DNA of 61,772 bases from an uncultured Prevotella sp. (GTDB lineage: Bacteria > Bacteroidota > Bacteroidia > Bacteroidales > Bacteroidaceae), in NCBI GenBank assembly GCA_944320195.1, contig CALUGP010000016.1, forward strand, positions 1 to 61,772. The letters run 5' to 3'. Under the pieces are notes generated by a model. It did no database searches and had not been told where the DNA came from. It saw nothing but the letters and a program-made list of their open reading frames with translations. A program made the position numbers and the translations under genes. This document shows positions 27,679 to 30,903 of this stretch, piece after piece. Numbering within the stretch: the stretch's first letter is position 1; each line of letters opens with the position of its first letter.

Positions 27679-28236
27679 ATGAAAAAGACACTTATCACAA
27701 TGCTTCTCGCAATATTCGCCATCGCAACCGCCGGAGCGCAAACGGGCGACAACAAGAAGCTTTCAAAACAGGAACGCAAGGTCCTTCAGGCACGCATCGA
27801 CAGCCTGACCTTTCAGAAAGCGTTGAGCGCAATCAATGACACGGCCTTCGTGGTGGAGGCAGACCAGGTGACATTCAAGCGCGGATACACCGTCCACGTA
27901 ACGTCAAACACAAACTTCATAGCCTTCTGCGGCGACAGGGCCGTGGTGCAAGTAGCCTTCAACGTGCCATGGCCGGGCTTCAACGGGCTTGGCGGCATCA
28001 CTGTGGAGGGCAGCGTGTCAAAATATAAAAAGACAACCGACAAGAAGGGCAACGTCTACATACAAGCCGGAGTACAAGGCGTAGGCATATCGGCCCAGGT
28101 ATTCATAACGTTGCCAAACGGCACCGACAAGGCTTCAGCAAGCGTGCAACAAAATTTCTATTCAGGGCGCATCACGCTCAACGGCAACGTCGTTCCGCTT
28201 GAAGAAAGCAACGTGTTCAAGGGGAAAACGCTGTGA
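27679..28236 (+). CDS. DUF4251 secreted protein
   Basis: A 185-residue protein with signal peptide MKKTLITMLLAIFAIATAGA. The body fits DUF4251: a helical start with KQERKVLQARIDSLTFQKAL, then strands FVVEADQVTFKRGYTVHVTS, NTNFIAFCGDRAVVQVAFN, PGFNGLGGITVEGSVSKYK and GVGISAQVFITLPNG. Function unknown; the family is common and periplasmic in Bacteroidetes. It ends 77 bases before a GACGGCC hairpin. No clear promoter was seen in the 86 bases upstream. Confidence 0.85.
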   Translation: MKKTLITMLLAIFAIATAGAQTGDNKKLSKQERKVLQARIDSLTFQKALSAINDTAFVVEADQVTFKRGYTVHVTSNTNFIAFCGDRAVVQVAFNVPWPGFNGLGGITVEGSVSKYKKTTDKKGNVYIQAGVQGVGISAQVFITLPNGTDKASASVQQNFYSGRITLNGNVVPLEESNVFKGKTL

Positions 28237-28312: not shown

Positions 28313-28391
28313 AAAAGGCCGTCTTTCGCGATGTGAAAGACGGCCTTTTAGCTTGCAATTTGCGGCTTTTTGCACGACGAAAGGCCGTCAA
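28313..28391. repeat. GACGGCC hairpin, copy B2
   Basis: AAAAGGCCGTCTTT pairs with AAAGACGGCCTTTT (28313-28349). The shared tail AGCTTGCAATTTGCGGC follows, then GAAAGGCCGTC at 28380-28390. It lies between convergent genes and overlaps the 3' end of the methyltransferase gene. Confidence 0.85.
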
Positions 28392-29161
28392 TCGGAAAGC
28401 AAGTAAAAACACGACGTAGCCATGAAGTCCCTGACATATGGAATGCCCGACAGCAAACGGCACAGCCTGACGGGCCGAAGGCCGAACTTGACGTGGTAAT
28501 GCGGATTGACAAGCCACAACTGCCTGTGGCGCACGGTGAACCCCACGCGCCGCGCCAAAATGTCGAACCCCTCGACAGTAAGGCGCGTTCCGCGTATCGA
28601 CATAAGCTCGTTTATCGTGAAAGCGTCCTCACCCGACAAGGCCAGCAACCCGCGATACCAGCCCGAAGGCAGCAAATGCACAAACGGCGCATGGCTCACG
28701 GCAAAGCCACAGGCTATCTGCTGATGCCCTCCGAACGGCATCATCCACGGCGGAAAGGCAACAAACGCCACTCCGCCGGGCGCGAGCAGCAGCCTCAAAC
28801 GCGCAAGCAGCGCTGCCTTGTCGGCCACATGCTCTATAACGTCGTGCGACACAATGATGTCGAACCGGCGGCCACCGGCATCATAGTCAAGTATGTCGGC
28901 ACACACGAAGTCGCCAACCGCGCCTTCACGCGAGAAGAAACATGAAGCCTGGCCTACGCGCAGCTCCGACACGTCCACACCCGTAACACGGCACCCCCTA
29001 CGGGCAAACGGCAACAGATTGCCACCCTCGCCACAGCCAACTTCAAGCACATTCTTGCCTTCGACAGTGGCAAACCTTGATATGTAAGGAATAAAATACT
29101 TCTCAGCCGTAACCGCCTCTTCCTTGAAATAGCGGTAACGGTCATTATGCCTTTTCTGCAT
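28388..29161 (-). CDS. Class I SAM-dependent methyltransferase
   Basis: A 257-residue methyltransferase. Motif I reads NVLEVGCGEGGNLLPFARRG; the acidic residue binding the SAM ribose is in VTGVDVSELRVGQA. The next motifs are VCADILDYDAG, FDIIVSHDVIEHVADKAAL and LLAPGGVAFVAFPPWMMPFG. The Asp-Val-Ile-Glu-His stretch is typical of UbiE-type enzymes acting on small molecules or glycans. The substrate is unknown. It begins 71 bases after the sigma-barrel fusion gene and may be in its transcript. Confidence 0.88.
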   Translation of the reverse strand: MQKRHNDRYRYFKEEAVTAEKYFIPYISRFATVEGKNVLEVGCGEGGNLLPFARRGCRVTGVDVSELRVGQASCFFSREGAVGDFVCADILDYDAGGRRFDIIVSHDVIEHVADKAALLARLRLLLAPGGVAFVAFPPWMMPFGGHQQIACGFAVSHAPFVHLLPSGWYRGLLALSGEDAFTINELMSIRGTRLTVEGFDILARRVGFTVRHRQLWLVNPHYHVKFGLRPVRLCRLLSGIPYVRDFMATSCFYLLSD

Positions 29162-29232: not shown

Positions 29233-30903
29233 TTAATCAAACACTATCCTGAAACCAAACGGGAAAGCCACCTGCAACGGTTTGTCGCTCCATTGGGTCT
29301 CCGTCTTTCCCCCGTTGGGCACATACCACGTCAGCTTCGGAGAGAAGAACAGCTGCAATCCCGGCGCCATGTCATACGACACGCCCACACCGGCACTGGC
29401 CGACCACTGCCATCCGGGAAGCCCGAGCCTGCGCTCAGAACGGTAAATCACAGTGTTGTCAAGATTGAACCTTACATCCGACTTGCCATGAAACGGTATG
29501 TCCAAGGCCACGCCTGCCGTGCCATACGCATTCCAACGGCCATTGTGCAAGAATCTGTATGACACGCTGACGGGCACACCAATGAAGCAAGTCCGCTGCC
29601 GCTCGGTTATGCCAGTAGTGTCAGCCCGGCCCGTAAGAAGATTGGTTGTGTGGCGCGTGAAGCGCAGCCCGAAGTCCAGACTCCACCTTTCAGTCAACCG
29701 CTTGCTGAAGTCCAAGCCGATCTGCAACGGACTTTCAAAGTCTTTCTTCGTCACGATGCGCCCGTTGTTGTTATACGCCATCTGCAGCAGAGCATATCTC
29801 TCTTCCTGCGTAAGGCCGACACCCGTATCATAAGTAAGGTAATGAGCCAGTTCCTCCCATGTCTCGATGTTCACTCTCGTGCCCGAACCTACACCGCCGC
29901 TTATCATCCGCAGCACCCTCGCAGCCATGCCGCCAGAGCCGCGACCGGCCACAGAACCTAAGCCGAACAGCCACTTCCGGCCGCCCTCAAACAGTCTTGC
30001 GCTGCCGCAGACATCGCTTCCGGCCGCCTCAACCATGCGCAACGGGGGAGCGTCTGGCAGGCGGACAGCACCGTCCAATATGCCTATGCCTGGCATATCG
30101 GCCACATCAGGCATTTCCGGCGCAGTCTCCATGCCACAAAGCGCACTGTCCGCAACATCACCCAACGGCGCGGCGAAGCGGCCTGTCGCCGCAGTCGGCA
30201 TGCCGCCGGCCTGTCGTTCTGCAACGGTCTCACGTCTTTCGGCCTTGGCAATCGGGATCGGACAAGTATAGTCTGCGCCCTGCCGCACAAATGCAGAACG
30301 ACGGCCGACCTGTCCGTCAAGCAGATGAAGAGCCAGAGCAACGGCCAACAGCACCACAACCGCACCCATGCGGGCACGGTATTCGGCCACCATGTAGCGC
30401 AGTGCGCGCTTCGCACGAGCCAGCTGCGACGATGACGAGCGCGGCTCTATACCTAGCATGCGGGCAATCTCGCCATGCGGCAGACCGTCGATGACAGCCA
30501 GCTTGAACACACGGCGGTAACCGTCAGGCAAACTGTCAATCATCTCCATTATGTCGTCAAACGGAACTATGCCTTCCATATATTCCTCATCAGCGCACAA
30601 GGCATCGGCCTCAACATTGCCCATCGGCACACAGCCGTTACGGCTCTCAACGGCTTTCAGGGCAAGATTGGTCATAATCCTACCCATCCAAGCCTCGACA
30701 TGGCGCGGCTCGCGCAACGCTCCGAGCGACGTGAAGACCACGATGAAGCCGTCATGCAGCACGTCACGTGCCTGCGCCTCGTCACCGACGATACGCAGAC
30801 ACACCCTGAACATCTTGCCCGAATACGTCCGATACAGCGCAGCCCACGCGCCACGGTCGCCCTCCTTGCACCTTCTGATAAGCTCTTCCGTCGTCATCAA
30901 CAT
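29233..30903 (-). CDS. ECF sigma factor fused to TM helix and outer-membrane-type barrel
   Basis: One continuous 556-codon frame with three parts. Residues 7-87 are sigma region 2 (ELIRRCKEGDRGAWAALYRT, then DVLHDGFIVVFTSL) and 115-170 are region 4 with helix-turn-helix LPHGEIARMLGIEPRSSSSQ. Residues 179-195 form one transmembrane helix (MGAVVVLLAVALALHLL). A ~110-residue Pro/Ala/Met-rich linker leads to a C-terminal barrel (about 308-556): FGLGSVAGRG, PLQIGLDFSKRLTERWSLDF, GVPVSVSYRF, WNAYGTAGVALDIPF, ending KPLQVAFPFGFRIVFD. In many Bacteroidetes an ECF sigma gene is followed by a separate TM-linker-barrel gene; here they are one protein. Start may be Met1 or Met3. Internal Met179 could allow a second product. 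Confidence 0.85.
   Translation of the reverse strand: MLMTTEELIRRCKEGDRGAWAALYRTYSGKMFRVCLRIVGDEAQARDVLHDGFIVVFTSLGALREPRHVEAWMGRIMTNLALKAVESRNGCVPMGNVEADALCADEEYMEGIVPFDDIMEMIDSLPDGYRRVFKLAVIDGLPHGEIARMLGIEPRSSSSQLARAKRALRYMVAEYRARMGAVVVLLAVALALHLLDGQVGRRSAFVRQGADYTCPIPIAKAERRETVAERQAGGMPTAATGRFAAPLGDVADSALCGMETAPEMPDVADMPGIGILDGAVRLPDAPPLRMVEAAGSDVCGSARLFEGGRKWLFGLGSVAGRGSGGMAARVLRMISGGVGSGTRVNIETWEELAHYLTYDTGVGLTQEERYALLQMAYNNNGRIVTKKDFESPLQIGLDFSKRLTERWSLDFGLRFTRHTTNLLTGRADTTGITERQRTCFIGVPVSVSYRFLHNGRWNAYGTAGVALDIPFHGKSDVRFNLDNTVIYRSERRLGLPGWQWSASAGVGVSYDMAPGLQLFFSPKLTWYVPNGGKTETQWSDKPLQVAFPFGFRIVFD

Follow-up and report, generated by a model that had tools for sequence, protein, structure and literature searches.

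A Dma3-type ECF sigma factor joined to an outer-membrane-type barrel in Prevotella, and a promoter-like motif before its gene and a neighbouring methyltransferase gene

In Bacteroidetes an ECF sigma gene and the gene for its membrane-bound, barrel-bearing partner commonly stand as a pair, and the partner begins with an anti-sigma segment. A 61,772-nucleotide stretch of DNA from an uncultured Prevotella sp. (here called the window) carries, on its minus strand (29233-30903), a gene in which sigma factor and barrel form one chain. Because the anti-sigma part is missing from this chain, the locus poses a question in clean form: is a tether enough by itself to hold a sigma factor inactive, and what frees it?

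One reading frame from sigma factor to barrel

The gene starts at 30903 and ends at 29233, and its 556 codons form an uninterrupted open frame. Three Pfam families are matched above their curated cut-offs: sigma region 2 at residues 23-88 (PF04542, Sigma70_r2; 33.6 bits against a cut-off of 24; 30640-30837), sigma region 4 at residues 117-168 (PF08281, Sigma70_r4_2; 51.6 bits against 25.7; 30400-30555) and a barrel family at residues 375-521 (PF13568, OMP_b-brl_2; 34.6 bits against 27). These, like the other parts of the protein described below, are encoded on the minus strand. The presence of regions 2 and 4 without region 3 marks the N-terminal part as an ECF sigma factor. A hydrophobic segment follows region 4; hydropathy puts its start at residue 179, and the membrane helix occupies approximately residues 179-197 (30313-30369; Kyte-Doolittle mean 2.65). 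Beyond it lie a predicted disordered periplasmic linker (approximately residues 199-310; 29974-30309) and a C-terminal barrel of outer-membrane type (approximately residues 311-556, confident from about 343; 29236-29973). An initial annotation of the window had proposed the frame with its two sigma regions, the single membrane helix and the barrel; the first two are confirmed, and the barrel is borne out by Pfam, by an AlphaFold2 model and by Foldseek.

The AlphaFold2 model, built from an alignment of 22 sequences, has a mean pLDDT of 68.3 and a pTM of 0.43. It contains the helices of sigma region 2, region 4 and the barrel, confident from about residue 343; pLDDT is below 50 at residues 90-111 and 199-342, and the first barrel strand (311-317) falls inside the second of these low-confidence stretches. 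A single helix (residues 154-199) joins region 4 to the membrane segment, so that the last helix of region 4 is predicted to be continuous with the membrane helix, at modest confidence (means of 59-73 over 10-residue blocks). Foldseek with this one model gave 47 matches at E 0.001 or better, including the ECF sigma factors SigW and sigma-E, and the small barrels OmpA (TMt 0.61-0.64), NspA (0.64) and OmpW (0.54-0.57). Barrels of the OmpA kind are eight-stranded. When solved structures were searched with a sequence profile, the 23 sequences obtained were all sigma factors.

Could the single frame be an artefact, either of a frame error through which two genes are misread as one or of an internal start that gives a separate barrel? 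In this genus sigma and partner often occur as separate pairs, and the source genome itself has one (on contig C51, described below). However, the same single frame recurs in relatives. In a scan of named genomes the best 80 of 521 relatives are all uninterrupted fused frames of 537-587 aa; these were chosen by score, that is, for matching both halves, and since the 80 loci are ranked by their match to the whole fusion the set is uninformative on frequency. Their titles include Bacteroides, Parabacteroides, Muribaculaceae, Porphyromonadaceae and many Prevotella-type genera. The search for the same fusion that the initial annotation had called for also found it in one frame in 19 of 60 genomes of the genus, the source genome included (a count read off the listing). 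A frame error at the junction, which that annotation had named as refuting its reading, is ruled out because the homologues keep one uninterrupted frame. Further, the anti-sigma segment of the separate partner is absent from the fused protein, not merely out of frame. The annotation had also suggested that Met179 might serve as a second start. Methionine occupies that column in only 4 of 82 aligned proteins, and a conserved internal start there is rejected; yet some methionine does fall within columns 174-184 in 35 of the 82. Taken together, we regard an artefact of either kind as extremely improbable.

The order sample, 198 genomes searched with the fused query at E 1e-32, gave matches in 8 genomes, with the full fusion in the source genome and two others and the sigma end alone in one more, and at this threshold the search could miss stricter or more distant forms. 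A search of the phylum with the alignment, in which no more than three candidates were scored for each genome, is left out of the counts. The fusion is frequent in this genus, and in the sample of the order it is sparse. Relatives in the genus or family also hold copies of the fused gene, or of its sigma end, that are truncated or frame-broken (L020/L050 in G034:C6, L045 in G041:C15, L028 in G036, and G289:C13). One fused gene (L129) lies in a record titled Roseburia sp. (MAG), which is probably a mis-binned Bacteroidales contig.

Relation to the two-gene form and to Dma3

Among 2069 open frames from the loci, with distinctness judged on the last 90 residues, there are 98 with both halves, 36 with the sigma half only and 27 with the barrel half only. 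The sigma tree, of 133 domains, places 97 fused rows and two fused-like rows (the sigma-only frames L020 and L028) in one clade with support 100/100; 25 separate sigmas, which do not themselves resolve as a single clade, lie outside it, and nine other ECFs lie farther out. The fused sigmas group with the separate Das-type sigmas, apart from the nine other ECFs (99/97). A barrel tree from a quick search likewise separates 25 separate partners from 98 fused barrels and one truncated barrel (SH-aLRT 96). Since the sigma and barrel trees each split the fused form from the 25 separate pairs, one old fusion event is indicated as the simplest reading of these sequences, and the view that an ECF sigma has here been joined to its usual partner of membrane helix, linker and barrel is supported.

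In the separate partners the membrane helix is preceded by a cytoplasmic segment of about 36-58 residues (86 in one of them). A profile built from these segments of the 25 separate partners matches 25 of 25, which are its training set, and, with filters off, none of the 98 fused proteins; the loss of the anti-sigma segment, as originally proposed, is supported, and the idea that the segment is hidden elsewhere in the fused protein is rejected. In other frames of the loci the profile matched weakly; the matches inspected lay in one short part of radical SAM neighbours, and we ascribe them to chance. The distance from the sigma region 4 motif to the hydrophobic segment is 5-15 residues in 98 of 98 fused proteins, and that from the hydrophobic segment to the barrel match is 100-150 residues in the same 98. 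The latter length supports the earlier suggestion that the linker could span to the outer membrane, and prediction supports tethering of the sigma factor at the inner membrane.

The names Dma1 to Dma3 reportedly come from a 2024 PNAS paper. The available part of one source describes Dma3 of Bacteroides thetaiotaomicron as a protein of Dma layout with a sigma domain at its own N-terminus and with no adjacent ECF21 sigma gene (locus bt_2778-2779), about which very little else is known; the vesicle profiles of dma1 and dma2 mutants stayed altered when dma3 was deleted (PMC13088901). The present protein has the same order of parts, with the sigma factor N-terminal to the membrane helix, a disordered tether and a C-terminal barrel in one chain. 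It likewise has no adjacent separate cognate ECF sigma gene: the flanking ORFs are a methyltransferase gene, which shares its strand, and an ORF of 1104 aa, which runs the opposite way, and the 12 other matches of the fused protein in the source genome are all on other contigs. A relative in B. faecis (L056) matches at 32% over residues 1-552, has the same frame and is followed by the same methyltransferase family, with the promoter-like motif described below before both genes. B. faecis is close to B. thetaiotaomicron. The link to Dma3 is made through this relative and the published description, the B. thetaiotaomicron sequence itself not being among the best 80 of the 521 loci. Because it fits the description of Dma3 and has its methyltransferase family in common with the B. 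faecis relative, the protein is filed as Dma3-type and not as an anti-sigma factor; the architecture is already in print under that name. The initial annotation had missed both this and the methyltransferase gene with its shared promoter-like motif.

The two-gene sigma/Dma pairs, in the part of the source available, resemble the fused form in their membrane helix, disordered tether and C-terminal barrel (PMC13088901), and their sigma is related. They differ in consisting of two proteins, of which the partner starts with the anti-sigma segment that the fused form lacks, and the TGCAGT motif is unusual before the separate sigmas sampled (2 of 27). In the source genome such a pair lies at L051 (G000:C51, 1567-4450, minus strand), where a separate sigma (256 aa frame) overlaps a 430 aa partner with membrane helix and barrel. 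The pair is preceded by a NigD-like gene (NigD_N, NigD_C) and looks like a locus of the Das1-Dma1-NigD1 type, recalling Das1-Dma1 and NigD1 of B. thetaiotaomicron as they appear in the available text (PMC13088901).

A promoter-like motif before the fused gene and its neighbours

Two promoter-like sites of the form TGCAGT-N19-CATAA, identical in spacing, lie on the minus strand of the window. At the first (TGCAGTAATCTGCGTTTTTCTTACTCATAA, 30962-30933; 14.6 bits) TGCAGT starts 59 bases upstream of the fused gene's start codon. At the second (TGCAGTATTTTGCAGGTTTTGCCATCATAA, 29210-29181; 17.2 bits) it starts 49 bases before a gene for a class I SAM-dependent methyltransferase of 257 aa (28388-29161, minus strand; PF13489, 69.3 bits), which is a predicted target of the sigma factor. 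The consensus common to the regions upstream of fused genes is (G/A)TGCAGTCTTTT; the motif takes the form TGCAGT(C/A)..TT with a -10-like element, this second element often being TATC or ACTC and lying mostly 22-24 bases after the T of TGCAGT. An ORF on the plus strand at 27679-28236 is convergent with the methyltransferase gene, and a look-alike is found in the same neighbourhood of a close relative (L054).

A matrix was made from 23 distinct upstream 13-mers, without training on downstream regions, and a threshold of 8 bits was applied. Scores of at least 8 bits were found upstream of the fused gene in 90 of 98 loci, which are the training set, and within the 150 nt downstream of it in 83 of 98, the loci being related by descent. 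The same threshold was reached in 3 of 98 with the reversed motif, in 5 of 98 on the other strand, in 5 of 98 inside the gene and in a mean of 2.45 after shuffling. Exact TGCAGT[CAT] is absent from 13 of the 98 loci within 220 nt upstream. These 13 include L052, which is among the three closest relatives and has it downstream only; L055 has it neither upstream nor downstream of the fused gene. The literature search, whose scope excluded the motif letters and the paper naming Dma1-3, found no description of the promoter motif or of the anti-sigma loss. The motif before the fused gene and its neighbour is thus new as far as searched; within the same bounds, the motif before the fused gene and neighbouring enzyme genes provides the first specific predicted target set and a reporter, and these predicted DNA signals make the job of a Dma3-type protein testable.

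The genes that follow the fused gene come from a small number of families. Within the 100 bases after it a gene of the methyltransferase family lies at 23 of 98 loci, in the same orientation at 19 and inverted at four; radical SAM/SPASM genes follow in 42 of 98, Gfo/Idh/MocA oxidoreductases in 40 and small lipoproteins in 30, and none of these families is found in 19, several of which are loci cut short. At the four inverted loci the motif stands before the inverted gene, at 15.1, 11.8, 7.6 and 15.5 bits, against 10.1, 1.1, 7.3 and -2.3 bits in the interval after the fused gene; two counter-points are that the sense interval of L107 also reaches 10.1 bits and that the inverted site of L108 has only 7.6. 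In G012, where the fused gene and the radical SAM gene are on different contigs, the latter has the motif at 19.5 bits, and in B. salyersiae (L057) the motif precedes a glycosyltransferase-like gene instead. At L107, L108, L068 and L090 the inverted methyltransferase gene is preceded by TGCAGT sites that point in opposite directions, back to back, which suggests that the divergent gene beyond is under the same control. On the divergent side of L107 lies an ORF of 839 aa whose start is lamin-tail-like, and in L167 (G059) an ORF similar to it comes after a site.

Do the enzymes occur with the fusion? In 32 hand-picked genomes of the genus (13 of the 19 with the fusion and 19 of the 41 without), surveyed at thresholds of our own choosing, a methyltransferase or radical SAM gene was present in 10 of 13 with the fusion versus 2 of 19 without (Fisher p 0.0002); neither enzyme was found in 3 of the 13 at these thresholds. 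The two fusion-free cases were counted against the model. G050 has a radical SAM gene near a contig edge with the motif present; G003 has a methyltransferase gene with a degenerate site (TGCGGT, 8.8 bits), and tblastn found no remnant of the fusion there in L202.

It might be asked whether the TGCAGT promoters belong rather to another sigma factor, for example of Das type, the fused protein being a downstream product or a dead-end sensor. In B. thetaiotaomicron deletion of dma1 or of dma2 raises expression of the dma3 locus, as far as the available part of the source goes (PMC13088901), so that other sigmas might drive dma3. However, upstream scores of 8 bits or more occur in no more than 2 of 27 separate-type sigma genes (and 1 of 8 other ECF genes), and the two separate-type genes with exact TGCAGT are L020, itself fused-like, and L046. 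Further, the methyltransferase site of G003, where no fusion was found, is the degenerate one, and the five exact 12-mer matches in six genomes without the fusion have no ORF start after them where one was looked for. Control by another sigma factor is, on this evidence, unlikely.

Across the source genome (2.84 Mb) TGCAGT-N19-CATAW has five sites and its reversed control one; two of the five are those at the fused locus, by construction, as the pattern was drawn from them. The other three fall inside open frames, and on this pattern a wider regulon in this genome is rejected. The looser 13-mer with one mismatch gave 15 matches against 14 for the reversed control, and therefore no genome-wide signal. 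Among genus-mates there are 41 exact motif matches in 16 genomes, 30 of which were read as loci. Of the 25 from fusion genomes, nine precede the fused gene, a methyltransferase, a radical SAM gene or a lipoprotein ORF, one precedes an LTD-like gene and four precede unrelated ORFs; the remainder have no ORF start by the rule applied. The same 34-base stretch starting GTGCAGTCTTTT occurs in L155 (G010), L157 (G042) and L179 (G029), one of these genomes being without the fusion; no ORF start follows it, and it is a conserved non-promoter element.

Tethering, release and sensing

The reading that we favour, at a probability of roughly 0.58, is a Dma3-type self-activating switch from outer membrane to gene, with motif control of its own gene and of the neighbouring enzyme gene and a small regulon. 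The sigma factor would be made joined to the membrane helix, the long linker and the barrel; from domain order and prediction, its sigma end would be held at the inner membrane and its other end anchored in the outer membrane. Since the anti-sigma segment of the partner is gone, inactivity would have to come from the tether itself, presumably with sigma region 4 held against the membrane. The trigger may be a change at the barrel or at its helical stretch, or a failure of insertion. A cut close to the membrane helix, most probably made first by a site-1 protease and then by an RseP-type M50 protease, would free the sigma factor, which is predicted to recognise TGCAGT(C/A)-type promoters of its own gene and of the neighbour, here the methyltransferase, because of the conservation and position of the motif, its co-occurrence with the fusion and the loci with inverted genes. 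Positive autoregulation and a small regulon would result.

Proteolytic release and an envelope-stress trigger are steps that we infer, and for release the nearest characterised precedent is IutY of Pseudomonas putida (ECF243). It differs from the present protein in belonging to a cell-surface signalling system, which has a separate receptor. In the text available, IutY is similar in that an ECF sigma is fused to a membrane-bound part, with proteolytic activation, and different in that the part fused to the sigma is an anti-sigma factor and that the protein is not described as having a barrel (PMC8999054). ECF48, ECF52 and ECF53 of Actinobacteria also carry a C-terminal extension with a membrane helix, but there a zinc-finger anti-sigma domain is retained, and the same partial text describes no outer-membrane barrel (PMC8999054). 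An M50 protease is present in the source genome, and likewise in 14 of 14 control genomes.

One consideration counts against release: with the last sigma helix continuing into the membrane helix, a hydrophobic stub would remain after cleavage. Alternatively, the sigma factor could work while anchored, with polymerase recruited to the membrane and a signal from the barrel changing the posture of region 4. The predicted continuity of the last region 4 helix with the membrane helix, at its modest confidence, and the gap of only 5-15 residues in every fused protein fit such a scheme, since mechanical coupling through them would be direct. Nevertheless, target promoters would then have to be reached at the membrane, and the characterised ECF factor with a fused membrane helix, IutY, is freed by Prc and RseP according to the available part of its description (PMC8999054); we therefore consider work in the anchored state rather doubtful. 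A more elaborate version, which seems to us decidedly unlikely, is a mechanical wire from surface to promoter that needs neither a second protein nor proteolysis. The barrel and its helical stretch would sense the outer face, tension in the linker would turn the shared membrane/region 4 helix, and RNA polymerase engaged at the membrane would fire the fused gene and the adjacent enzyme gene.

In the part of the source available, BT2778 bears the annotation sigma-70 factor and is listed with a change of about 2.3-fold when iron is limiting and about 1.4-fold in work on colitis (PMC10434189), which is a hint only. Within the barrel, a conserved helical stretch at residues 349-378 (29770-29859, minus strand) is found both in the alignment and in the model. 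It starts with a near-invariant tryptophan, Trp349, whose column is W in 78 of 82 aligned proteins, and AlphaFold2 places its two helices (349-358 and 366-378) between the first, low-confidence, barrel strand and the second; this stretch is a candidate for the sensing element.
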